Position numbers and translations under genes: made by a program
DNA from: Brachyspira sp.
Lineage (GTDB): Bacteria > Spirochaetota > Brachyspiria > Brachyspirales > Brachyspiraceae
Length of the DNA stretch: 35,672 bases
Assembly: GCF_029258575.1 (NCBI RefSeq)
Contig: NZ_JARHYI010000060.1
Location: forward strand, 1-35,672
Direction: 5' to 3'
Notes under the pieces: generated by a model
Told to the model about the DNA's origin: nothing
The model's database searches: none
Seen by the model: only the letters and a program-made list of their open reading frames with translations
Shown: piece by piece, positions 1 to 34,461 of the stretch
Layout of the letters: every line of letters starts with the position of its first letter
Numbering within the stretch: the stretch's first letter is position 1

Positions 1-421
1 TATATTTCATATTGTTAATATTTTCAGTTAAACAGCATTTATTGTATAAATAAATTATCATTTCATAAATGTTAATGTCTTTACTATCTTTTTTATCCAT
101 ACATATTTTTATTTTTATTAATGAAAAAAATACTATAGTGTCATAATATACTTTTCCACGCATAGCATCTTTATATTTTAAATGTTTTTTATACCTGATA
201 TTTATAATCTGGAGCATAGTTGAAATATCTATTTTATCTTTTTCGTACATATTGAAAATCATTTTGAGATCTTCGCATAATCTAATTACATTAGTTTTAT
301 AACAATCTATATAATTTACATTATTTAAGAAGTTTCTGTACTTTATTTCTGTATTGTTTTCAATAATTTGCAATATGTTATTCAGGCTACTTTTATCAAA
401 AGTATAATATAATTTTTCCAT
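1..421 (-). CDS. Unknown protein, 3' end cut off by window edge
   Basis: An open frame of 140 codons runs from an ATG at 421 leftward off the window without a stop. The start is preceded by a good ribosome site (GGAG, 9 nt before ATG). The product begins MEKLYYTFDKSS and is rich in Lys, Ile, Asn and Tyr, apparently mostly helical, with no signal peptide or membrane segment in the visible part. I do not recognise a family. It starts only 48 nt after the last recognisable codon of the decayed viperin-like gene on the same strand and no terminator lies between, so the two were probably one transcription unit. Whether it is a functional partner of that gene cannot be told from this fragment. Confidence 0.6.
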   Translation of the reverse strand, partial: MEKLYYTFDKSSLNNILQIIENNTEIKYRNFLNNVNYIDCYKTNVIRLCEDLKMIFNMYEKDKIDISTMLQIINIRYKKHLKYKDAMRGKVYYDTIVFFSLIKIKICMDKKDSKDINIYEMIIYLYNKCCLTENINNMKY

Positions 422-469: not shown

Positions 470-1072
470 TCAATTAACTTTTTTGTACCTATTATGATAT
501 TTATCTATGCTGTAATTCATTTAAAAAACTCTTCCTCTAAATCAACATTATTATCAAATAAACTATTTGAGTAAATTATTTATTATCAATGTTATTAAAG
601 AATCTTCCTTTAGCATCAAGCATTATATATGAAGAAGTCATGTTATCATTATTTTCACTGTATATTATTTTTTCATATATAGATATTCTTCTTCTGTTAT
701 AGGTTTGTTGTTTCCTACACTTCTTCCTATTTTTATGCATGTTTCTTTGTATAATGAATCTATTCTTAAACCAATACATCATAGCATTCTAAAGTTGCTT
801 TTAGGATAGAATTATACTTTAAAAAGATAGAACCATTGCTTACTATACTTAATATATGACCATGTGATTTTAGATAATGCAATAAATGAATATAGTTCTT
901 GTATATAGTCGTCACCACCTACTAAATTAATATACTTAAAAGGTTTAAGTTTTTCAGCTATTTTGAATGAATTTATATTGCATGAATCTTTTGAAGCATA
1001 ACAAAACTTGCAATGCATATTGCAGTTATTAATGAAATGCCAATTAAGTTTTAAACTATTAAAAATACTCAT
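470..1072 (-). pseudogene. Decayed prokaryotic viperin-like radical SAM gene
   Basis: The start (ATG at 1072) has a perfect GGAGG site 8 nt upstream and a strong promoter. The first frame reads NWHFINNCNMHCKFCYA, a CxxxCxxC radical-SAM cluster motif in the viperin setting, then INLVGG. Near 913 the frame changes; the next frame gives KNYIHLLHYLKSHGHI and LSIVSNGSIF. Near 778 it changes again to CIGLRIDSLYKET..IGR and PITEEEY. Near 675 another change leads to DNMTSSYIMLDAKGRFF, the viperin C-terminal signature, ending at 576. A last, doubly shifted stretch (DLEEEFFK, then MNYSIDKYHNRYKKVN) looks like the family's C-terminus. About 80-100 codons between IGR and PITEEEY are missing. At least four frame breaks plus the deletion make a working enzyme implausible. 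Viperins make 3'-deoxy-3',4'-didehydro nucleotides that block phage and virus polymerases. The family call rests on remembered motifs. Confidence 0.75.
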
Positions 1073-1146
1073 AATAAATACCTCCGAAATTAACTCGAAC
1101 ATATCAAAGATATTTTTTTACTAAGTATTTTTCAACTTATGATAAT

Positions 1147-1175
1147 AGTATAGTTTATTATTTGTTTTAAGTCAA
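1147..1175 (-). promoter_or_regulatory. Sigma-70 promoter of the viperin-like pseudogene
   Basis: On the minus strand, TTGACT (1175-1170) and TATACT (1152-1147) are separated by exactly 17 nt. The predicted start near 1140 gives a leader of about 68 nt. The promoter is intact although the gene it serves is broken; it probably still drives the downstream gene at 1-421. Confidence 0.65.
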
Positions 1176-1256: not shown

Positions 1257-2390
1257 TTATTCAAATATAGTTTTGTATTCGTCTTTTAAATAAGGTTTGA
1301 TTTCTTCTATCGGTATTAATACTCTGGTTTCGCCTATAACATAAGCTCCTATTTCATATATTCCCCAAGTGAATACTAAACCTTTTGATGTTAGACAGAA
1401 ATTATTATTTTCTAATGTAAGTTCATCTAATCCGAAATAAGAGTCAGCATTTCTGCCTTCTATTTTTACAAGTTTATCTTTTACTAAATTAAGTAAGTTA
1501 GCATCTTTTATATCTATTATTAAATCTGCTATAGTTAATTTATTTCCGTTTTCTAACGAGTATACGCTGTTTATTGTATTATAATTTCCATGTGCACCAC
1601 CTGTATATTCATAAACAAATTTATTTATAGAAACTACCTTCTCACTTAAATAGTCTATACAGAATTGAGATGAATAATTTTCTATATGTGGCATATAACC
1701 TGATTGTACCCATTCATCATATAGAGGAGTCATTTTATTGCTTATTATGCTTTGAGCACTTAATAATCTTGTTAAATCACTGAATATACTTGCATCAGTT
1801 ATACCAAATTCTTTATTTATGTCTAAATTGATTTTATTTATACTTTCTAAATTTTGATCGTTCTTTAAAGCAAATATAGCATTTTTAAATTGGAAAAATC
1901 TTTGACCATTAGTTGATTCAGGGGAAAGATTTGAATAAGCATATTCAATTACCATAGCACCTGTTACTGGAGTTTTTACTGCTTTGAAAGTCATTTCTTT
2001 TCCATCTATTTTAGCAACGAAAGGATATGAAATACTTGGGAAATTACCTTCTAAAGTTTTGTTGTCAAAAGAAGTTGCTGATATATTTCCTTCATCAATA
2101 TCACTTGCTTTTGTAACATTAAAAATATTCCAATCTTGATTAATATCTCTGTAATATATAAATCCAAAATTCTTATCTTCATTATAATCTATTTCAGAAT
2201 TGATATATTCTCCTGTGTCAGATACTAAATATACAACTTCATAATTATTAGCTTTTTCATTTTCGCTAAGTTGTAATTTTTCTACTGCCTCTGTATTATT
2301 AGAAGCGGATTCTTTTTGAGCATTATTTGAATTATTACATGATACTAAAATTAATAATCCCAATACTCCTGTTAAAAATATAGGTTTCAT
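1257..2390 (-). CDS. DUF3298-type (RsiV/PdaC-like) lipoprotein
   Basis: A 377-residue exported lipoprotein. The N-terminus MKPIFLTGVLGLLILVSC has a short basic start, a hydrophobic core and a lipobox with Cys18, followed by a Ser/Asn/Glu-rich linker to about residue 40. The C-terminal half carries the DUF3298-style signature YTGGAHGNY, then a segment on a gradient of Asn/Leu residues and a closing IGAYVIGETRVLIPIEEI, as in the extracellular domains of RsiV and PdaC. In that family the domain binds lysozyme or acts on peptidoglycan; here neither is shown. The ribosome site is GAGGATAGAT before the ATG. A weak promoter (TTTACA, 18 nt, TATATT) may lie about 50 nt upstream. It is probably transcribed alone: a terminator follows and the upstream glycosyltransferase genes end 104 nt before it. 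Confidence 0.7.
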   Translation of the reverse strand: MKPIFLTGVLGLLILVSCNNSNNAQKESASNNTEAVEKLQLSENEKANNYEVVYLVSDTGEYINSEIDYNEDKNFGFIYYRDINQDWNIFNVTKASDIDEGNISATSFDNKTLEGNFPSISYPFVAKIDGKEMTFKAVKTPVTGAMVIEYAYSNLSPESTNGQRFFQFKNAIFALKNDQNLESINKINLDINKEFGITDASIFSDLTRLLSAQSIISNKMTPLYDEWVQSGYMPHIENYSSQFCIDYLSEKVVSINKFVYEYTGGAHGNYNTINSVYSLENGNKLTIADLIIDIKDANLLNLVKDKLVKIEGRNADSYFGLDELTLENNNFCLTSKGLVFTWGIYEIGAYVIGETRVLIPIEEIKPYLKDEYKTIFE

Positions 2391-2494: not shown

Positions 2495-3664
2495 TTATAA
2501 ATTTAATTTGATTTTTATAAATAGTATTTTTATATATTTATTTTTTCTATCATCAGTATTTATGGAGAATATATTTCTTAATATATTACTTAATGTTATT
2601 ACTATAGGTTCATCTATACATTTTTTATTTTTTATAATTATACGAATACCAAATAGCCTTACTGTAATATCAAAATCTTTAATTATAATAGAAAAGAAAT
2701 ACGGTTTTAATTTATTATTCAATTTTTCTATATTATCTTTTTCTATATTATAATAATTTTTTAATTTTAAATATTGATTTATAATTTCTTCATCAAAATA
2801 CTTATTTATAATATTTAAGTACCTTTGCTCATTATTTTCAATTTTTTCAAATAGATACATATATTGATTATAATACAATCTAGTATATTCATATCCATAA
2901 CTAATATTAGCATTTAATTTTATCAAAAAATTATAAAATTCATTTAAAGCTGATTTTACATTTTGACATATATATTCATATTTTTCTAAATTAATTTCAT
3001 CATTATTCTTTGTACTAATACTAATATCAGTATTATATATATAAAGATTATTATGCAAAATAAAAATAGATTTGGCATAATAAAGTCCAATTAAACATTG
3101 CAGCATATCTTCAGAATAAATTAATTTAATGTCTTTAGTATTTTCAACTATTTTATTTATTATTTCTTTATTAAAAAATTTTCCGCACATATTGTGTGGT
3201 ATTTTTTTATCTATAGCTTCATTCATCAGATAATCTGTATGAATATTATATCTGTTTGTAAGTAAAGACCATTGCATATCTTTAGAATTTCTATTAGAAA
3301 TTATTTTAACGCCAAAATATATTATATCATAATCATTGTTTTTAATGCATTCAAATACTTCCTTACAAGTATTAATATCTAATTCATCATCAGAGTCTAC
3401 ATAAGTTATGTATTTGCCATTTGCTTTTATACTGCCATTTTTTCTTGAAATCAAAGTACCTTTATTAATTTCATGTTCTATATAAATTAATCTATCATCA
3501 TTTTTTATATAACTTTTTATTATTTCACCTGAATTATCAGTTGAACAATCATTTACTACTATTATTTCTATATCTTTAAAAGTTTGACTGATTAAACTAT
3601 CTAAACATCTTTTTAAATATTTTTCAGTATTATATACTGGTACTATTATTGAAAAGAAAGGCAT
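2495..3664 (-). CDS. Family-2 glycosyltransferase (second of tandem pair)
   Basis: The N-terminal 110 residues are a GT-A catalytic domain: FFSIIVPVYNTEKYLKRCLDS, VVNDCSTDNS and the metal/nucleotide-binding TYVDSDDE. The rest (to about 390) is a lineage-specific helical region ending in FSINTDDRKNKYIKILFIKI. No membrane segment is evident. The predicted role is transfer of a sugar during surface lipo-oligosaccharide or other glycan assembly; the acceptor is unknown. A longer reading from an ATG at 3679 is possible, but the ATG at 3664 has GGAG 9 nt upstream and makes the N-terminus line up with the neighbour (MPFFSI versus MNKIPFFSI), so I prefer it. It follows the paralogue on the same strand with 23 nt between (8 nt with the longer start). 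An AT-only inverted repeat (2480-2502) overlaps the stop codon. Confidence 0.85.
   Translation of the reverse strand: MPFFSIIVPVYNTEKYLKRCLDSLISQTFKDIEIIVVNDCSTDNSGEIIKSYIKNDDRLIYIEHEINKGTLISRKNGSIKANGKYITYVDSDDELDINTCKEVFECIKNNDYDIIYFGVKIISNRNSKDMQWSLLTNRYNIHTDYLMNEAIDKKIPHNMCGKFFNKEIINKIVENTKDIKLIYSEDMLQCLIGLYYAKSIFILHNNLYIYNTDISISTKNNDEINLEKYEYICQNVKSALNEFYNFLIKLNANISYGYEYTRLYYNQYMYLFEKIENNEQRYLNIINKYFDEEIINQYLKLKNYYNIEKDNIEKLNNKLKPYFFSIIIKDFDITVRLFGIRIIIKNKKCIDEPIVITLSNILRNIFSINTDDRKNKYIKILFIKIKLNL
2502..2576. repeat. 3'-end repeat of glycosyltransferase pair, copy 1
   Basis: 75 nt matching 3692-3766 with 4 differences by eye. It encodes the shared C-terminal stretch (NIFSINTDDRKNKYIK and what follows) of both glycosyltransferases and is far more alike than the bodies of the two genes. 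Confidence 0.8.
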
Positions 3665-3687
3665 TATATTATACTCCATATTTTCTT

Positions 3688-4899
3688 TTATTTTAATTTT
3701 ATTTTTATAAATAATATTTTTATATATTTATTTTTTCTATCATCAGTATTTATAGAAAATATATTTTTAAGTAATGAATTAAATGATATTATTATATATT
3801 CATTAAATTGTTTTTTGCTTTTTATATTTATTTTTATTCCAAAAATTTTAATATTTATATTGTATTCATATATTATAATTGAAAAAAAGTATGGTGTAAG
3901 TTTATTAATAATTTTTTTATATTTATTTTCTTTTAATTCATTATATTCTTTTATTTTTAAATATTTATTTATGATATTTATATCAAAATGACTTATTAAT
4001 ATTTTTGTATATTCATTTTTATTTTCATTATCTATTATTTTTTCTTTTAAAAATCTGTATTGGTTATAATATATAGTATAATAGTAAAATCCATATAATA
4101 TTTCAGTACCTTGTTTTTTTAAAAATTCTAAAAATTCATTACATGCAATAGAAGAACATTCGCATAAATAATTATAAGAATCATAGCTTAAACTGGATGT
4201 ATTTTTATTGCTTTCCCCAATACTTATATAATAATAATATAATTGTTTGTTTATAGATAAATAAGACGAAGCAAAGTAGAAAATCATTAATGATTGTAGC
4301 ATATCCTCAGCATTCATTAGCCTTATATCAGGTATATATTCTGTAATTTTTTTTATTATATAGGCTTTATAAGCTTTACCCCACATATTATGTGGTATCT
4401 TTTCTTGCACAATTTCACTTAATAAATATTCTTCATCTATTAAACTTCTATTTGAAGATATATACCATTTAACTTTATTGATTGCTTTTATTTTTTCTTT
4501 TTTAGTTAGATTATTATTACCATCTAAAATTGCTTTTGAATTAAAATGTATAATATCTGCCTCTTTTATTTTATATGCATTATATATTTCTTGGCACATA
4601 TTTATATTAACTTCATCATCAGAATCTATATAAACAATATATTTTCCTGATGATTTTATATTACCTGTTTTTCTAGCTAATAATAATCCTCTATTTACTT
4701 CATGTTTAATATAAATTATTCTATTATCATTATTATATTGAGAAACTATTTCATCGCAGTTTTGAGGAGAACAATCATTTATTATTATTATTTCTATATC
4801 TTTGAATGTTTGATTAATTACACTATCTAAACATCTTTTTAAATATTTTTCAGTATTATATACTGGAATGATTATTGAAAAGAAAGGAATTTTATTCAT
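3688..4899 (-). CDS. Family-2 glycosyltransferase (first of tandem pair)
   Basis: A 403-residue paralogue of the next gene. The GT-A domain shows IPFFSIIIPVYNTEKYLKR, IINDCSPQN and VYIDSDDE; the shared IPHNMWGK and AEDMLQSL motifs in the middle are also present in the neighbour (IPHNMCGK, SEDMLQCL), so the two copies are alike over the full length, not only in the catalytic domain. The C-terminus FSINTDDRKNKYIKILFIKI is identical to the neighbour's. The likely role is surface glycan synthesis in the cytoplasm or at the membrane face, with donor and acceptor unknown. It heads a two-gene operon behind a near-perfect promoter; the ribosome site (AGAG) is weak. Confidence 0.85.
   Translation of the reverse strand: MNKIPFFSIIIPVYNTEKYLKRCLDSVINQTFKDIEIIIINDCSPQNCDEIVSQYNNDNRIIYIKHEVNRGLLLARKTGNIKSSGKYIVYIDSDDEVNINMCQEIYNAYKIKEADIIHFNSKAILDGNNNLTKKEKIKAINKVKWYISSNRSLIDEEYLLSEIVQEKIPHNMWGKAYKAYIIKKITEYIPDIRLMNAEDMLQSLMIFYFASSYLSINKQLYYYYISIGESNKNTSSLSYDSYNYLCECSSIACNEFLEFLKKQGTEILYGFYYYTIYYNQYRFLKEKIIDNENKNEYTKILISHFDINIINKYLKIKEYNELKENKYKKIINKLTPYFFSIIIYEYNINIKIFGIKINIKSKKQFNEYIIISFNSLLKNIFSINTDDRKNKYIKILFIKIKLK
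3692..3766. repeat. 3'-end repeat of glycosyltransferase pair, copy 2
   Basis: Partner of 2502-2576, 75 nt with 4 differences. The offset is 1190 nt, about one gene length, as expected from tandem duplication followed by divergence or by local gene conversion. Confidence 0.8.
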
Positions 4900-4929
4900 A
4901 AGAAACTCTAATATTAATTAATGTTATAA

Positions 4930-4957
4930 ATTATAAAATATGGAATTAAAATGTCAA
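4930..4957 (-). promoter_or_regulatory. Consensus promoter of the glycosyltransferase operon
   Basis: On the minus strand TTGACA (4957-4952) and TATAAT (4935-4930) both match the sigma-70 consensus fully, with a 16-nt spacer. The start near 4923 gives a leader of about 24 nt. Confidence 0.7.
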
Positions 4958-4984
4958 TATATTATTTTCTTATTTATCAATACC

Positions 4985-5013
4985 TTGTTATATTTATAAT
5001 TTCATATTAGAAT
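4985..5013 (+). promoter_or_regulatory. Candidate promoter of metH
   Basis: TTGTTA (4985-4990), 17 nt, TAGAAT (5008-5013). It is the best match in the 150-nt divergent gap. No SAM or cobalamin riboswitch fold is apparent; the leader would be only about 30 nt. Confidence 0.4.
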
Positions 5014-5049
5014 ATTTACTAAAATAATTTTATATACTTAGGGTATTTA

Positions 5050-7662
5050 ATGAAAAATATAAAAGAAAGATTAAAAGAACTTATAACAGAACAATATTTA
5101 ATCATAGATGGTGCCACAGGTACAGAATTACAGAAGAAAGAAATTAATAAAGAATCTTGGATTATAGATGGGAATAATGTAGAAGGCTGTAATGAAATAT
5201 TAAATATAACTGCTCCAAATATAATGAAAGAAATACATACGGATTATTTAAATTCTAATGCCAATATAATAAAAACCAATAGCTTTGGTGCTATACCTTG
5301 GGTTTTAAGTGAATATGATATAGCTGATAAAACTTATGAGCTTGCTAAAAGTGCAGTATTGATAGCGAATGAGGCAAGAGAAGAATATTTAAAAAATCCA
5401 AATTCAAAAGGAGATTTAAATAGAGATATTTTTGTTGCGGGAAGTTTGGGACCGGGAGTAAAACTTCCAAGTTTAGGGCAAATCTCTTTTGATGAGATGT
5501 ATGAAGGTTATGTTAAAGCTGCAAAAGGTTTAATTGATGGAGATGCTGATATAATCCTTTTAGAAACGGCACAAGATGTTTTGCAATTAAAATCAGCTAT
5601 ACTTGCATGTAATGATGTATCTAGAGAATTAAATAAAGAAATTCCAATAATGGTTTCTGTAACTATAGAAAAGGAAGGTACTATGCTTTTGGGTACTGAT
5701 ATAGAAACAGCATATACAATACTTTCTAATTTAGATATATTTTCTATAGGAATGAATTGCGGAACAGGTCCTGACATGGCAACTCGTCATATAAAGAAAC
5801 TTGCAGAAATATCATGTCTGCCTATATCAATGCATTGTAATGCTGGACTTCCAGAAAATAGAGGCGGAAAAGCATATTATAATATGACTCCTGAAGAATT
5901 TGCTAATATAAATAGTGAGTTTTTTAATTTGAATGGACTTTCATTTATAGGAGGATGCTGCGGTACTACCCCATTGCATATAGAGGCTTTATCAAAAAAA
6001 GTAGAAGGTGTAAAACCTAAAAAAACTGCATTAGATAAACCAAGAGCATATATAGCAAGTTTATTCAATATAGTTAGTATCAAACAAGAGCCTGCACCCT
6101 TGATGATTGGTGAGAGAAGTAATGCTAGTGGAAGTAAAATATTTAGAGAGCTTATGATAGCAAATGATATAGACGGTATACTTGATGTGGGAATAAAGCA
6201 AGTTAAAGCAGGAAGCCATGCCATAGATGTTAATGCTGCTTGGGCTGGAAGAAATGAAATAGAGGATATTAAAAAAATTATTTCAGCTTATGTTAAACAA
6301 ATTTCACTGCCTTTAGTTATAGATGCAATAAAACCTAATGTTATAGAATCAGCTTTAAAAGTATATGGAGGAAAACCAATAATAAATTCCGCTAATATGG
6401 AGCAAGGCGAAGAAAAATTTGATACTATATGTTCAATGGCTAAAAGATATGGTGCTTCTATTATGCTTCTTACAATAGATGAAAAATCAATGGCACTTAC
6501 ATGTGAAGATAAATTGAGGATGGCTGAAAGAATGTATAACCGTGCTGTTAATGTACATAAAATACTTCCTCATGATATAATATTCGATCCTCTTACATTT
6601 ACTTTGGCTAGTGGTGATGAAAAAAGTTTTGCTGCAGGTATTGAAACATTGAATGCTATTAAGGAACTTACAAAAAAATATCCTGAATGTTCTATAAGTT
6701 TGGGAGTATCTAATATATCTTTCGGACTTAAAGAAGAAGCAAGAAAAATAATGAATTCAGTATTCTTGTATGAGGCTATTAATCATGGACTTACTACTGC
6801 TATTGTTAATGTTGCCCAGATACTTCCGCTTTCAAAAATAAATGAAAATGAAATAGAATTAGCAAGAGCATTAATTTATAATAGAAGCAATACTAAAGAA
6901 CCTCTTATTAATTATATCAATCATTTCTCTGATAAAAAAGAAAAGAAAGAATTATTAAATAATGAAGAAAATATAAAGAAGCCTTTAAGAGAAGCTATAA
7001 GAGATGCTATGCTTGACGGTGAATGGAAAGATATGCAGAATTTGCTCAATGAAGTAAAAGAAAACAGTGAAGATTTTGGAGGAGAAAAGAAATTTGCACA
7101 AGTTATTATTGATGAAATACTTCTTCCTACAATGGCTGATATAGGAGTTAAATTTGGAGAAGGTACTATACAGCTTCCATTTGTTTTGGGTTCTGCTGAA
7201 GTTATGAAAAAAAGTGTTGATTTCTTATCTGAATTTTTAGAGAAAAAGAAACAGGATAAAACTGCTAAAATTATACTTGGTACTGTAGCAGGAGATGTGC
7301 ATGATGTAGGTAAAAATTTAGTAGAAATAATCATAAAGAATAATGGATTTGAAACAGTTAATCTTGGAACTAAAGTATCTATAGAAAAATTTATAGAAGC
7401 TTATAAGGAACATAATGCAGATTGTATAGGTATGTCTGGGCTTTTGGTAAAATCTACTGAAGTGATGAAAGATAATCTTGCTTATATAAGAGAAAAAGGA
7501 TTAAAGATACCTATTCTTCTTGGAGGAGCAGCACTTACAAGAGAGTTTGTTGAAAATGACTGCCAAAAAGTTTATGGGGATACTGAGCAAATATTTTATT
7601 GTAAGGACGGTTTTGATGGTATCTTGGCTATAAAAGAAGTAATAGCAGATAGAGATAAATAA
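5050..7662 (+). CDS. metH: Cobalamin-dependent methionine synthase lacking reactivation domain
   Basis: An 870-residue enzyme that moves a methyl group from methyltetrahydrofolate through cobalamin to homocysteine in the cytoplasm. Domains in order: homocysteine-binding barrel (about 1-320; DGATGTELQ, zinc ligands Cys237 in MNCG and Cys303-Cys304 in GGCCGTT), pterin-binding barrel (about 340-610; GERSNASGSK, DVNAAW), cobalamin cap (about 645-740), cobalamin domain (about 740-870; DVHDVGKN with the axial His751, then MSGLLVKS and LLGGAALT). It ends where this module ends. The roughly 330-residue SAM-binding reactivation domain of E. coli MetH is absent (E. coli enzyme is about 1,227 residues) but a separate gene for it lies 174 nt downstream. 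The ribosome site is AGGG 6 nt before ATG. Confidence 0.95.
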   Translation: MKNIKERLKELITEQYLIIDGATGTELQKKEINKESWIIDGNNVEGCNEILNITAPNIMKEIHTDYLNSNANIIKTNSFGAIPWVLSEYDIADKTYELAKSAVLIANEAREEYLKNPNSKGDLNRDIFVAGSLGPGVKLPSLGQISFDEMYEGYVKAAKGLIDGDADIILLETAQDVLQLKSAILACNDVSRELNKEIPIMVSVTIEKEGTMLLGTDIETAYTILSNLDIFSIGMNCGTGPDMATRHIKKLAEISCLPISMHCNAGLPENRGGKAYYNMTPEEFANINSEFFNLNGLSFIGGCCGTTPLHIEALSKKVEGVKPKKTALDKPRAYIASLFNIVSIKQEPAPLMIGERSNASGSKIFRELMIANDIDGILDVGIKQVKAGSHAIDVNAAWAGRNEIEDIKKIISAYVKQISLPLVIDAIKPNVIESALKVYGGKPIINSANMEQGEEKFDTICSMAKRYGASIMLLTIDEKSMALTCEDKLRMAERMYNRAVNVHKILPHDIIFDPLTFTLASGDEKSFAAGIETLNAIKELTKKYPECSISLGVSNISFGLKEEARKIMNSVFLYEAINHGLTTAIVNVAQILPLSKINENEIELARALIYNRSNTKEPLINYINHFSDKKEKKELLNNEENIKKPLREAIRDAMLDGEWKDMQNLLNEVKENSEDFGGEKKFAQVIIDEILLPTMADIGVKFGEGTIQLPFVLGSAEVMKKSVDFLSEFLEKKKQDKTAKIILGTVAGDVHDVGKNLVEIIIKNNGFETVNLGTKVSIEKFIEAYKEHNADCIGMSGLLVKSTEVMKDNLAYIREKGLKIPILLGGAALTREFVENDCQKVYGDTEQIFYCKDGFDGILAIKEVIADRDK

Positions 7663-28733: not shown

Positions 28734-29102
28734 ATGGCTAAAACAATACTAATTGTAGACGATTCTAATACAGCTAGAGCATCTGTTGAATATACTTTGA
28801 AGAAAGGCGGTTATACTGTAGTATCTGCAGATGATGGTACTACAGGCTTAGAAGTTTTGGGTAAAACTCCTAATGTTGATATGATAATAACTGACCTTAA
28901 CATGCCTAAAATGGATGGTATAGAATTTATCAAGCATGTAAGACAGGTGGATCAACATAAATATACCCCTATTCTTATGCTTACAACAGAATCTCAAGAT
29001 GAGAAAAAAATGGAGGGTAAAGCTGCTGGAGCAAGTGGCTGGCTAGTAAAGCCATTTAACCCAACTCAGCTTTTAGACGTAGTAAAACGTTTCTTAAGCT
29101 GA
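28734..29102 (+). CDS. cheY: Chemotaxis response regulator CheY
   Basis: 122 residues, a lone receiver domain. Acidic pocket VDDS at 8-11, phosphoacceptor Asp54 in ITDLNMP, Thr in LMLTTES near 84 and Lys in VKPF near 105 are all in place. Phosphorylated by CheA, it would bind the flagellar switch. With no effector domain it is a CheY, but the genome may have others and this one could serve as a phosphate sink. AAGAGG precedes the start. Confidence 0.93.
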   Translation: MAKTILIVDDSNTARASVEYTLKKGGYTVVSADDGTTGLEVLGKTPNVDMIITDLNMPKMDGIEFIKHVRQVDQHKYTPILMLTTESQDEKKMEGKAAGASGWLVKPFNPTQLLDVVKRFLS

Positions 29103-29157
29103 TTATCAATAATCTTATTTTTAAATAAGTATTTTATTAAAGGTAGAGGTGTGATAT

Positions 29158-31269
29158 ATGTTTGATAGCGATGAATTTATTTCGATATTTTTAAGTGAAG
29201 CTAATGAGATTGTTGAAGGTCTTGAAAATGACTTAGTACTATTGGAAGATAATAAAAGTGATGAGGATCTTTTAAATAAAATATTTAGAAGTGCTCATAC
29301 TCTTAAGTCTTCAGCAGGTACAGTTGGATTTGCAACTATGAGTGATTTGAACCATGTTGCAGAAAATTTATTGGAAAAAGTAAGAAGCGGTAAATTAGAT
29401 GTAACTCCTCAAATGATTACAGTATTATTAGAGTTCTTGGATACTGTGAAATTAATGCTTCAAAATATTGTAGATGGCAAAAGTGAAACTGAAGGTGTTA
29501 ATAATATAGATTCATTAAAAGCTAAAATAAAAGCAATAGCTGATGGTAATGATGTATCAAAAGCTGTAGCACCTGAACCTAAAAGTGAAGAACCAAAAAC
29601 TACTGAAGAAGTGAAAGGTGAAAAAACCGAAAACAGATCTGATTCTTCAGGAGGCAATAATTCATTCCACATAGATATGGGATTTAAAGCTACTATTTTT
29701 GATAATGGTATTGACCCTTTAATGTTTTTAAATGACCTTAGAGCAATAGGAAGTATTAGTAATTTAAAAATAGAATGTAATAGTTTACCTACAATTTTGA
29801 ACCTTGAAGATCCTTATATTTGTTATACTCAGTTTTCTTTAGATTTTACAACAAATGCTCTAGAAGAACAGGTACAGAATATTTTCTTATTTGTAATAGA
29901 TGATAATGATATTAATATTATCGGTATAAAAGATGATGATGCAGATAATAAAGATACTCAAGATAAAACTGCTGCTAAGCCTGCCGAAGAGGTTAAAGAA
30001 GAAACTACTAAACCAGAAGAAAAACAGAAAGCTGAAACAACAGCACCTGCTGCTAAGCCTAAAGCTGCTGCAAAAGTACAGGCTCCTTCAACAGTTAGAG
30101 TTGATACTAGAAAATTGGACAGCTTGATGAACCTAATCGGAGAGCTTGTTATTGCTCAGTCAAGAATAATGCAGCTTACTCAAAGTTTGGATATAGATAA
30201 TGGACTTAAAGAGGCGGTAAGTTCAATGGATAGAACTTCAAGACAGATACAGGAAGAAGTTATGAATATCCGAATGATGCCTGTCGGTCCTATATTCACT
30301 CAATTCCATAGATATGTTAGAGATTTGAATTTAGAATTAAATAAAGAAGTAAAATTAGTATTGAAAGGTGAAACAACAGAAATAGATAAAAATATGTTGG
30401 AGCAATTATCTGACCCTCTTAAGCATATTATAAGAAATTCTATGGACCATGGTATAGAAAAGACTAAAGAAGAGAGAATAGCTAGAGGAAAACCTGAATT
30501 TGGTACTATAACAATGTCAGCAGCTCATCAAGAAGGACATGTTGTTATAGAGGTATCAGATGATGGTAATGGATTGAATAAAGAAAGAATATTCAACAAG
30601 GCTGTTGAAAAAGGTCTTCTTTCTAAAGATGGTAAATATTCTGATATAGAAATATACAGAACTATATTCAGTCCAGGTCTTTCTACTGCTGAAAAAATAA
30701 CAGACATATCAGGAAGAGGTGTTGGTATGGATGTTGTTAGAGCGAATGTAGAAAAAATGAAAGGTAAGATAGAAATTAAATCTACTGAGGGTCAAGGAAG
30801 TACTTTCATAATCAAACTTCCTTTAACTTTAGCAATTATTGAAGGTATTACTTTTGCTTTAGGTAAGCAGATATATATTATGCCTTTAATATCTATCATA
30901 GAACAAATAAAAGTAAAAAATGAACAAGTTAAGCCTTTTGAAGGTAAAGGTGAAATGATAAAAATCAGAGATGAATATTTACCTTTAATTAGATTGCATA
31001 AAGTATTTGAAATAGACACTCAAGTAGATAATATAGATGATGGTATAGTTGTTGTTGTTGAAGCAGGATATAGAAAATGTGCTATATTTGTTGATGAATT
31101 ATTAGATCAGCAGCAAGTTGTTATTAAGTCTTTAGATTCAGCATTCAGTAAACATGCTGGTATAGCTGGTGGTACTATACTTGGAGACGGAAGAATAGCC
31201 CTTATTATAGATATACAAGGACTAGTTAATATGTCTTTACAAGGAAAAATAAACAACGGCGTAAAATAA
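29158..31269 (+). CDS. cheA: Chemotaxis histidine kinase CheA
   Basis: 703 residues with all five parts. P1 Hpt: His47 in RSAHTLKSSAGTVGF. P2-like domain at about 172-260 (FHIDMGFKATIFDNGIDPLMFL), between a charged linker and an Ala/Lys/Pro/Glu-rich linker (about 265-310). P3 dimer helices at 315-380 (RKLDSLMNLIGELVIAQSRI). P4 kinase: N box HIIRNSMDHG near 423, G1 VSDDGNGL near 470, G2 DISGRGVGMD near 517. P5 CheW-like domain from about 560 to the end. It autophosphorylates His47 and passes phosphate to CheY and CheB. AGAGGTG precedes the ATG; 55 nt separates it from cheY. Confidence 0.97.
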   Translation: MFDSDEFISIFLSEANEIVEGLENDLVLLEDNKSDEDLLNKIFRSAHTLKSSAGTVGFATMSDLNHVAENLLEKVRSGKLDVTPQMITVLLEFLDTVKLMLQNIVDGKSETEGVNNIDSLKAKIKAIADGNDVSKAVAPEPKSEEPKTTEEVKGEKTENRSDSSGGNNSFHIDMGFKATIFDNGIDPLMFLNDLRAIGSISNLKIECNSLPTILNLEDPYICYTQFSLDFTTNALEEQVQNIFLFVIDDNDINIIGIKDDDADNKDTQDKTAAKPAEEVKEETTKPEEKQKAETTAPAAKPKAAAKVQAPSTVRVDTRKLDSLMNLIGELVIAQSRIMQLTQSLDIDNGLKEAVSSMDRTSRQIQEEVMNIRMMPVGPIFTQFHRYVRDLNLELNKEVKLVLKGETTEIDKNMLEQLSDPLKHIIRNSMDHGIEKTKEERIARGKPEFGTITMSAAHQEGHVVIEVSDDGNGLNKERIFNKAVEKGLLSKDGKYSDIEIYRTIFSPGLSTAEKITDISGRGVGMDVVRANVEKMKGKIEIKSTEGQGSTFIIKLPLTLAIIEGITFALGKQIYIMPLISIIEQIKVKNEQVKPFEGKGEMIKIRDEYLPLIRLHKVFEIDTQVDNIDDGIVVVVEAGYRKCAIFVDELLDQQQVVIKSLDSAFSKHAGIAGGTILGDGRIALIIDIQGLVNMSLQGKINNGVK

Positions 31270-31281
31270 AAGGATTTTAAT

Positions 31282-31800
31282 ATGTTAGATAATCAAAAAA
31301 TAAATGCAGCTAATATACCTCAGGTTGGAGGCACATCTTTAGAACATGATGAAAACATTTCTATAGAACCTAGTCAGCAATTTTTGGTATTTAAAATTGA
31401 TAATGAGGAATATGCTCTTGATGTTTTAAGTATTGAAGGTATTGTGGGCGTTACTAATATTACTCCTGTTCCTGGAAGCCCTAAATTTATGAGAGGTTTA
31501 ATGAATTTAAGAGGAAATATTCTTCATATAGTTGATATAAGAATAAGATTCGGTCTTGATAGAAGAGATGATCATTCTATAGAAGACGATGTTATAATAG
31601 TAATATCTACTACTAATAGAAAATTTGGTATATTGGCAGATATGGTAAGTGATGTTATTACGGTTTATGAAAGTCAAATGACAGAAACACCTATAGATAA
31701 TATGAGAGGGCTTCAAATTTCTAATGTTATTAGATTAGAAAACAAAATTATTATGGTTCTTCCTATAGAAGAAATAATAAAATCTAATAATACAAATTAA
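31282..31800 (+). CDS. cheW: Chemotaxis coupling protein CheW
   Basis: 172 residues. After a roughly 30-residue polar extension it is a single CheW domain: FLVFKIDNEEYALDVLSIEGIV, VPGSPKFMRGLMNLRGNILHIVDIR (the conserved NLRG core) and FGILADMVSDVI. It bridges receptors and CheA P5 in the array. It begins 12 nt after cheA, so the two are likely made together. Confidence 0.95.
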   Translation: MLDNQKINAANIPQVGGTSLEHDENISIEPSQQFLVFKIDNEEYALDVLSIEGIVGVTNITPVPGSPKFMRGLMNLRGNILHIVDIRIRFGLDRRDDHSIEDDVIIVISTTNRKFGILADMVSDVITVYESQMTETPIDNMRGLQISNVIRLENKIIMVLPIEEIIKSNNTN

Positions 31801-31835
31801 TCAAAGAGTATAATAATATCGTTGAGGTATAAATT

Positions 31836-32687
31836 ATGGAAGATATAAATGAGCATATGCCAGCTCTGAGCGATTCTGAGTTTGCAGAATTAGTAAAAAT
31901 AATATATGATAAAACTCGTATACAGATGTCTAATCATAAAAGGGCATTGGTAACTTCTAGATTAAGTAAAAGACTCAGAGCTTTAAATATGGAATCTTTT
32001 AGAGAATATATAGATTTTGTAAAAAATGCTAGAGATGAAGAATTGACTAATTTCGTAAATGCTGTTACAACTAATAAAACAGATTTTTTTAGAGAAAATA
32101 AGCATTTTGAATATATGAAAAGCACATTTCTGCCAGATTGGGAGAAGAGTTTTAAAGCTGGAAAAGTCAAAAATCTTAGAATATGGTCAGCAGCATGTTC
32201 TACTGGAGAGGAACCTTATACTATTCAAATGACTTTACATGAATATTTCGGTTCTAATTATGATAGATATGATATAAAAGTTTTGGCTAGTGATATAGAT
32301 ACTAATGTACTTGCACATGGAAGAGCTGGAGTGTATAAGGAGGAATCAATTGATTCTATAGATGATAATATTTTAAGAAAATACTTCTTGAAAGGAACTG
32401 GGGATAAAGAAGGTTTATATAAAATAAAAGATGTTTTGAAGAAAAATCTCTTCTTTAGACAGTTAAATTTTAAAGACGAAGATTTTGATATTCATACACA
32501 ATTTGATCTAATATTTTGTAGAAATGTTATTATTTATTTTGATAAAGAATTCCAAAAGGAATTGTTTAATAAATTTCATAGATATTTAAAAGAAGATAGT
32601 TTAGTATTTATAGGACACTCAGAAACATTATTTGGGGTATCTGATAAATTTAAATATGTAGCAAGTAATATCTATAAAAAGATTTAA
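31836..32687 (+). CDS. cheR: Chemotaxis methyltransferase CheR
   Basis: 283 residues: N-terminal helical domain (1-75), then a SAM-binding domain with WSAACSTGEEPYTIQM near 117-132 and DLIFCRNVIIYFD near 227. It methylates receptor glutamates. The beta-subdomain loop reads FLKGTGDKEGLYKIK, very close to E. coli CheR FMRGTGPHEGLVRVR, where it docks the receptor C-terminal pentapeptide; this suggests that a tethering pentapeptide exists in this organism. It follows cheW by 35 nt. Confidence 0.96.
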   Translation: MEDINEHMPALSDSEFAELVKIIYDKTRIQMSNHKRALVTSRLSKRLRALNMESFREYIDFVKNARDEELTNFVNAVTTNKTDFFRENKHFEYMKSTFLPDWEKSFKAGKVKNLRIWSAACSTGEEPYTIQMTLHEYFGSNYDRYDIKVLASDIDTNVLAHGRAGVYKEESIDSIDDNILRKYFLKGTGDKEGLYKIKDVLKKNLFFRQLNFKDEDFDIHTQFDLIFCRNVIIYFDKEFQKELFNKFHRYLKEDSLVFIGHSETLFGVSDKFKYVASNIYKKI

Positions 32688-32703
32688 CTAGTGGGGTGTA
32701 ATA

Positions 32704-33297
32704 ATGATTGATTTTCCAGCAGCGGCTAATAGTAATTTTAAAAGGATCACTATATATATAGGTGGTTATTATGCTTCAAAAGAACCCTCTGTAATAAAAA
32801 CAGTTCTAGGTAGTTGTATATCTGTTTGTCTTTTTGAAAATAAATTGAAGTTCGGGGGGATGAATCACTTTATGCTTCCAGAAATGAGGGAATGGGAAAA
32901 TCCTGCTGAAGATTATAATAATACTAGATATGGTGTTTTTGCTATGGAGGTTCTTATAAACGAAATCATTAAATTAGGCGGTAAAAAAGAAAATCTTACT
33001 GCTAAAATATTTGGTGGGGGACATGTACTTTCTGGTATGACTACTAATATTCTTCAAGTACCAGATAAAAATATACAATTTGCTAAGAAATTTTTAGCTA
33101 ATGAAAAAATACCTATTGTTAGTGAAGATATCGGAGGTTCTTGGCCTAGAAAGGTATTCTTTTTCAATACTGAAAATAGAGTTCTTATGAAAAAATTAGA
33201 AGGTAAAAGTAAAGAATTTTCTGCTGAACAAGAAATTAAGTATTCTAAAAATTTACAGCATAAACTTGAAGAAAAATCAGACATCACTTTGTTTTAA
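32704..33297 (+). CDS. cheD: Chemoreceptor glutamine deamidase CheD
   Basis: 197 residues. The catalytic pair is in place: Cys38 in LGSCISVCLF and His55 in GGMNHFMLPE, with the family's YGVFAMEVLINEI and KIFGGGHVL further on. It deamidates receptor glutamines before methylation; in Bacillus it is controlled by CheC, which is not seen here. The tail beyond about 165 is charged and ends in DITLF, curiously like the DFTMF end of the MCP-like protein. It lies 16 nt after cheR, 24 nt before cheB. Confidence 0.93.
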   Translation: MIDFPAAANSNFKRITIYIGGYYASKEPSVIKTVLGSCISVCLFENKLKFGGMNHFMLPEMREWENPAEDYNNTRYGVFAMEVLINEIIKLGGKKENLTAKIFGGGHVLSGMTTNILQVPDKNIQFAKKFLANEKIPIVSEDIGGSWPRKVFFFNTENRVLMKKLEGKSKEFSAEQEIKYSKNLQHKLEEKSDITLF

Positions 33298-33321
33298 TAT
33301 ATTAATAATTAAGGATTTTTT

Positions 33322-34461
33322 ATGGCTACAAAAATTAAAGTATTGGCTATTGATGATAGCGCACTAATTAGACAGTTACTTACTAAAATTGTTAATTCAG
33401 ATCCTGCATTAGAGATGATAGGAACTGCAGCAAATCCAATTTTAGCTGAAAATAAGGTCAAAAATCTTAAACCTGACATTATTACTCTAGATATTGAAAT
33501 GCCTGAAATGGATGGTATTACATATCTAAAAAAGCTTATGCTTAATAATCCAATTCCTGTAATAATGTTTAGTTCTCTTTTAGATAAACATAGAGAATTA
33601 GCTTTAGATGCTTTAAATATTGGAGCTTTTGATTATGTAATAAAACCTTCTGCAAATGTTAGAGATGGTGTTGAAGAATTAGCTACAGATTTGGTAGAAA
33701 AAATTAAAAATGCTTATGCAAACAGAGCAAAATTCTATAGAAAACATGGAGTTTCTGTTCCTAGCGAGCCTGCAGCTGCTACTACTGTAGAAAAAAGTTC
33801 TATAAGTTTAGAAGCACCTAAAACTGCAGGATTTAAAGTTTATCAGAAAAATACTGCAGATGTTATACTTCCTCTTACACCTTCAAGAGAAACTCCTATG
33901 GATAAAATTATTCTTATAGGTTCTTCAACAGGAGGTACTGAAGCTTTAATAGAATGTCTCAAAAATGTTACTCCTTCTGCTCCTCCTATAGTTATAGCTC
34001 AGCATATGCCTGAACATTTTACAACTTCATTTGCTAAAAGATTGAATAGTATTCTTAAAATTGAAGTATTTGAATCTGAAGATGGTATGAGTGTAGGAAG
34101 AGGTCAGGCTATACTTGCAAGAGGTGCTAAACATACCATGATTAAAGTAAGAAATGGTAAATATTATGTTGAAGTAAGAGATGGAGAGCCTGTTACAAGA
34201 CATAAACCTTCTGTAGATGTACTTTTCAGAAGCGGTGCTGTTTATGCTAAAAATAAAGCTATTGGTATAATACTTACTGGTATGGGTGATGATGGAGCTA
34301 ATGGTATGAAAGAAATGAAGGATGCAGGTGCTTATAATATAGCTCAAAATGAAGAAACTTGTACTGTTTTCGGAATGCCTAGAGAAGCAATTGCTAGAGG
34401 TGGTGTAGATGAGATTTTACCATTAGATAAAATACTTGCTGCTGCTCTAAAAAAAGTATAA
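33322..34461 (+). CDS. cheB: Chemotaxis methylesterase/deamidase CheB
   Basis: 379 residues. Receiver domain 1-125 with DDS near 13, phosphoacceptor Asp57 in LDIEMPEMDG and KPS near 108. A linker (about 140-195) joins it to the esterase domain with its triad: Ser202 in GSSTGG, His228 in AQHMPEHF, and an Asp of GMGDDGANG (323-324). It removes receptor methyl groups when phosphorylated by CheA. The stop lies 5 nt before the next gene, so that gene is in the same operon. Confidence 0.97.
   Translation: MATKIKVLAIDDSALIRQLLTKIVNSDPALEMIGTAANPILAENKVKNLKPDIITLDIEMPEMDGITYLKKLMLNNPIPVIMFSSLLDKHRELALDALNIGAFDYVIKPSANVRDGVEELATDLVEKIKNAYANRAKFYRKHGVSVPSEPAAATTVEKSSISLEAPKTAGFKVYQKNTADVILPLTPSRETPMDKIILIGSSTGGTEALIECLKNVTPSAPPIVIAQHMPEHFTTSFAKRLNSILKIEVFESEDGMSVGRGQAILARGAKHTMIKVRNGKYYVEVRDGEPVTRHKPSVDVLFRSGAVYAKNKAIGIILTGMGDDGANGMKEMKDAGAYNIAQNEETCTVFGMPREAIARGGVDEILPLDKILAAALKKV

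Follow-up and report, generated by a model that had tools for sequence, protein, structure and literature searches.

A decayed prokaryotic viperin gene in Brachyspira and the large TPR-type partner gene beside its intact relatives

The viperin remains and their surroundings

The window analysed in this work is a stretch of 35,672 nucleotides (contig NZ_JARHYI010000060.1, read on the forward strand) from a genome that was placed in Brachyspira, a genus of gut spirochaetes, by its nearest named relatives. Close to the beginning of the window, the minus strand carries the remains of a prokaryotic viperin (pVip) gene, with the start of a second gene downstream and a lipoprotein gene upstream (Table 1). 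Upstream of the lipoprotein gene, two similar glycosyltransferase-like genes are arranged in tandem (2495-4899), in a stretch that varies between species. A putative chemotaxis cluster (cheY, cheA, cheW, cheR, cheD and cheB) was recognized by eye in the ORF list at 28734-34461.

Table 1. Features at the viperin locus of the window
Feature	Position	Strand	Remarks
First 140 codons of the partner gene (TPR/HEPN-motif protein)	1..421	-	Open to the contig end
Degenerate prokaryotic viperin (pVip) gene	470..1072	-	ATG start at 1072, stop remains near 470
C-terminal part, two short deletions breaking the frame	470..676	-	NNDNMTSSYIMLDAKGRFFNNIDNK ... FDNNVDLEEEFFK, MNYSIDKYHNRYKK
Junction of the 217-nt internal deletion	676..677	-	KINTVVNRYN...KWKIFQVLP region gone
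Radical-SAM half, two short deletions breaking the frame	677..1072	-	CxxxCxxC (CNMHCKFC), INLVGG, SIVSNGS, IDS..ET..IGR, PITEEEY
GGAGG ribosome-binding site	1081..1085	-	Conserved in all nine copies (alignment)
Sigma-70-like promoter (TTGACT, 17 nt, TATACT)	1147..1175	-	Conserved with intact loci (alignment)
DUF3298/PdaC-like lipoprotein	1257..2390	-	Usual upstream neighbour of Brachyspira viperin; Pfam match on the G022 orthologue

An earlier note on this DNA had described pieces of a viperin scattered over several reading frames. Translation of the minus strand of 470-1072 recovered all of these pieces, spread over three frames and in the order given. When the pieces were joined, with X at the breaks, and used in a profile search, they matched NF038283, the NCBIfam model for prokaryotic viperins, at 2.2e-27 and the PADLOC pVip model that is not kinase-associated (PDLC02903) at 8.6e-30. 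The best family unrelated to viperin reached 1e-3. Viperin profiles were ahead of all other families by approximately 20 orders of magnitude, and both halves of the remains were covered by viperin models only. The N-terminal single-frame piece alone matched NF038283 at 1.2e-7 and pVip at 1.8e-10, and the C-terminal single-frame piece alone matched NF038283 at 3e-8. Because single open pieces each matched viperin, the family result did not depend on the joining. The score of the joined remains was below the curated cut-off of 180 bits because the gene is truncated.

The conserved blocks of the family were also considered. The CxxxCxxC [4Fe-4S] motif is present as CNMHCKFC in the first open frame, and the SNGS, IDS..ET..IGR and C-terminal SYxMxDxxGRFF blocks were all found. 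The radical-SAM half shares 90% DNA identity with the intact locus of congener G022 over 677-1154. The KxNTVVNxYN and [KR]WKxFQ blocks, present in 8 of 8 intact orthologues, were absent from this copy because of the 217-nt deletion, which fits a pseudogene and not another family. Weak matches to the SbtM, NirJ and GeoRSP models, each located at the CxxxCxxC stretch, could indicate that the remains derive from a different radical-SAM family. However, these matches were at 1e-3 or worse versus 2e-27 for viperin, and the orthologues of the gene are full-length viperins; this origin was ruled out by the profile scores and has practically no chance of being correct. Judged by its sequence, the gene at 470-1072 belongs to the prokaryotic viperin family, and the viperin claim was borne out.

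Decay of the viperin gene

In an alignment to eight intact Brachyspira orthologues, the window copy showed gaps of 2, 1, 217, 1 and 1 nt, that is, four frame-shifting deletions of 1-2 nt and one internal deletion of 217 nt (~72 codons). The earlier note had correctly anticipated several indels, but its estimate of 80-100 codons for the internal deletion was slightly too high. This deletion has clean flanks and removes KINTVVNRYN and KWKIFQVLP, blocks that are present in every intact copy. Since conserved blocks were taken out, sequencing error cannot rescue the gene. The promoter and the GGAGG site, which had been claimed to be intact, both align with those of the intact loci.

The aligned DNA is 92% identical to the nearest intact copy (8% different), and the differences are still biased to third positions. 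Among the private changes of the window copy, 5 of 9 fall on codon positions 1-2; in most intact copies, private changes are found mainly at codon position 3. Taken together, the identity, the third-position bias and the pattern of private changes indicate that the decay is real and young, in agreement with the recent loss proposed earlier. The sequence is known from a 155-contig assembly alone and several of the breaks are single-base, so assembly or sequencing errors in an active viperin were weighed as an explanation of the frame breaks. This explanation is most improbable, because base-calling errors do not produce a 217-nt deletion with clean flanks and loss of conserved blocks, open frames are found for other large genes of this contig, and the private changes lean to codon positions 1 and 2. 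It is also very unlikely that a truncated or recoded product is still made from the gene and retains some function: although the promoter and GGAGG site were kept and the first frame is open for 86 codons, four frame breaks and the loss of ~72 conserved codons stand against such a product, and its split architecture was found in none of the intact relatives.

No second viperin was found by profile search in the same genome (2.66 Mb, 99% complete). The remaining matches, considered as candidates for an intact second copy, were long open frames far below the viperin cut-off and were rejected; such frames were also found in all 14 control genomes. From its sequence, 470-1072 in this Brachyspira species is a prokaryotic viperin gene that has become a pseudogene, and this copy, as read in the assembly, cannot be active. 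By itself, a dead viperin represents expected defence-gene turnover; its family is known and the pseudogene is an ordinary one.

Intact relatives and the downstream partner gene

Intact relatives, whose existence had been predicted, were found in 8 of 25 congeners, mostly at the same locus. Each carries a full-length single-frame viperin (~274 aa) that scored 245-255 bits in the profile search against the cut-off of 180. A DNA search returned the same nine genomes only and no viperin remnant in the other congeners. The intact orthologues matched the solved viperin-like enzyme 7n7h at 2e-33, and with dN/dS values of 0.07-0.16 they are under purifying selection. The viperins of Brachyspira fall into a single clade (100/100), and the carriers are scattered among non-carriers on a tree of ProRS genes, whose resolution is weak. 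Between some clades, viperin is closer than ProRS at synonymous sites (for example, 0.35 versus 0.97 for G022 and G017), and this is suggestive of transfer between members of the genus. In the phylum, pVip was found in 21 of 393 genomes.

In 7 of the 8 intact loci, viperin is directly followed on its own strand by a gene for a TPR-superhelix protein of ~650-770 aa; this gene runs into the contig end in G021 and is partly masked in G016. One congener, G020, has viperin without this partner. A relative of the partner was detected in 2 of 17 viperin-less congeners (G003 and G015), giving a Fisher p of 5e-4 for presence. The start of the partner in the window has 72% amino acid identity to the G017 partner, and the rest of the gene was searched for in the same assembly and not found. 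In G004, the situation of the window is inverted: the partner is frame-broken near its start (L097, about 7319), and viperin is intact. It may be concluded that viperin and a large TPR/HEPN-motif protein are encoded together in a two-gene cassette; the earlier note had missed this partner.

Viperin lies beside the same DUF3298 lipoprotein gene in 6 of 8 intact genomes, with only a lipoprotein fragment in the short contig of G021. The exceptions are G014 and G017, where viperin adjoins a helicase with a JAB-like domain instead of the lipoprotein. This helicase is DinG-like and has the JAB-like domain at its N-terminus (L094:3701-6238, minus strand; L096 in G014). The position of the cassette beside the helicase in two congeners indicates that it moves as a unit. 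In G015, viperin is gone and a 27-codon tail of the partner gene is left beside the lipoprotein gene (L063, G015:C1:63512-63592); this tail is a trace of a deleted cassette and a second sign of cassette loss.

The organization of the partner protein was studied with structure models. In the full-length model, the long N-terminal part (two thirds) was modelled as a TPR-type alpha superhelix, for which Foldseek returned 98 matches at E<=0.001, with TPR proteins (Ctr9, OGT and Ski3 among them) at the top. The Pfam TPR_19 match was weak (4e-4) and below the cut-off. The C-terminus carries the conserved motif IxQ[IL]R[DN][ST]LxH (R-[ND]-x3-H; RDSLAH), in which R160, L163 and H165 are invariant in 10 partner homologues, down to 35% identity, with D or N after R. 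The model of the C-terminal domain (pLDDT 78) places helices around the motif, and a fold search of this model against PDB gave no solved-structure match. No Pfam HEPN model matched the C-terminus, and at E 10 only noise was obtained; DUF3644, which is listed as HEPN (PMC3710099), appeared in one member at 0.43, within the noise of that search. The motif agrees with the rule for HEPN domains, which requires Rx4-6H and a polar residue after R (PMC3710099). Based on the motif and the modelled helix layout, the partner C-terminus is probably an HEPN-type RNase. No homologue of the partner domain was found in the viral contigs searched, and none of the partner in the plasmids searched.

Large downstream genes were also found beside viperins outside Brachyspira. 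In five Treponema-like genomes (G043, G167, G054, G368 and G421), a different large protein (835-1570 aa) is encoded downstream of viperin, no more than ~15 nt away or overlapping it slightly. These five partners align at 21-52% identity with an invariant RNxxxH. G495 contains only the start of such a protein and G430 a 279-aa fragment. Treponema-like partner loci were recorded at L155:6194-8740, L157 (minus strand, 3197-5713), L164:6367-11064 and L178 (minus strand), with no Pfam family. Other spirochaete viperins, of the INFAGGEP type, occur without the Treponema-like partner. Profile comparison detected no homology between the Brachyspira and Treponema-like partners. An RNxxxH-type motif is shared by these two families without detectable sequence similarity.

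It must be considered whether the TPR/HEPN-motif gene simply occupies the same hotspot as viperin and does no joint work with it. Its relatives also occur alone, between the gapA/pgk and gatB genes (G006 and G004) or beside gatB (G014), and the viperin without a partner in G020 and the broken partner in G004 point the same way. In contrast, the partner follows viperin immediately and in the same orientation in 7 of 8 loci, and this holds for the moved cassettes of G014 and G017 as well. Independently, a large gene with an invariant RNxxxH lies downstream of the Treponema-like viperins. A mere neighbourhood is therefore rather doubtful, though it retains considerable weight. A distant partner relative in G015 (L143, G015:C119) lies downstream of phosphoribosyltransferase-like and DprA-like genes, as recognized by eye, and may belong to a further defence operon.

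Proposed function and comparison with known systems

Intact pVips are radical-SAM enzymes that convert an NTP to a 3'-deoxy-3',4'-didehydro (ddh) nucleotide, which stops phage RNA synthesis. By analogy, an intact Brachyspira pVip would make a ddh-nucleotide that halts phage transcription. From its anatomy, the partner superhelix could sense infection or stalled transcription, and the partner C-terminus could, once activated on infection, cut RNA as a second defence arm. In the genome studied here, the viperin arm would have been lost by at least five deletions, while the promoter, the ribosome-binding site and the partner start stayed open.

Overall, with a probability of about 0.88, the locus is a viperin pseudogene produced by at least five deletions, whose live relatives pair viperin with a TPR-superhelix partner that is probably an HEPN-type RNase. 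The broader proposal that spirochaete viperins are two-component systems, in which a chain-terminator enzyme is combined with a large helical sensor bearing an HEPN-type RNase end, and that the window holds such a system with the enzyme arm dead, is tentative and falls somewhat short of even odds. The conserved partner was less expected than the dead viperin. Should this HEPN-motif protein cooperate with viperin, then some viperins of bacteria would be neither solo enzymes nor kinase pairs, and abortive infection through RNA cleavage may be coupled to an antiviral mechanism based on nucleotides.

Compared with the viperins described by PDLC02903 and NF038283, the Brachyspira remains have the same CxxxCxxC, SNGS, IDS..IGR and SYxMxDxxGRFF blocks, and both the remains and all intact Brachyspira orthologues score best with this family. 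The differences are that the window copy is dead and that the live copies have a large downstream partner outside the PADLOC models. The partner matched no PADLOC model, although the library may not include the archaeal TPR partner. The type consisting of viperin and a TPR protein has been reported only from Archaea (PMC12988326, citing Bernheim 2021). By description, the Brachyspira cassette has the same composition, but it occurs in a bacterial host and its partner has a C-terminal R-[ND]-x3-H domain. In LA2681-type HEPN proteins, an HEPN domain with Rx4-6H is fused to TPRs (PMC3710099, Table 1). The Brachyspira partner likewise combines TPRs with Rx4-6H and a polar N or D after R, whereas it has neither a Pfam HEPN match nor a fold-search match. 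In the literature searched, no description of a bacterial viperin with a TPR/HEPN-motif partner was found. The pseudogene in the window probably marks a new bacterial viperin variant.
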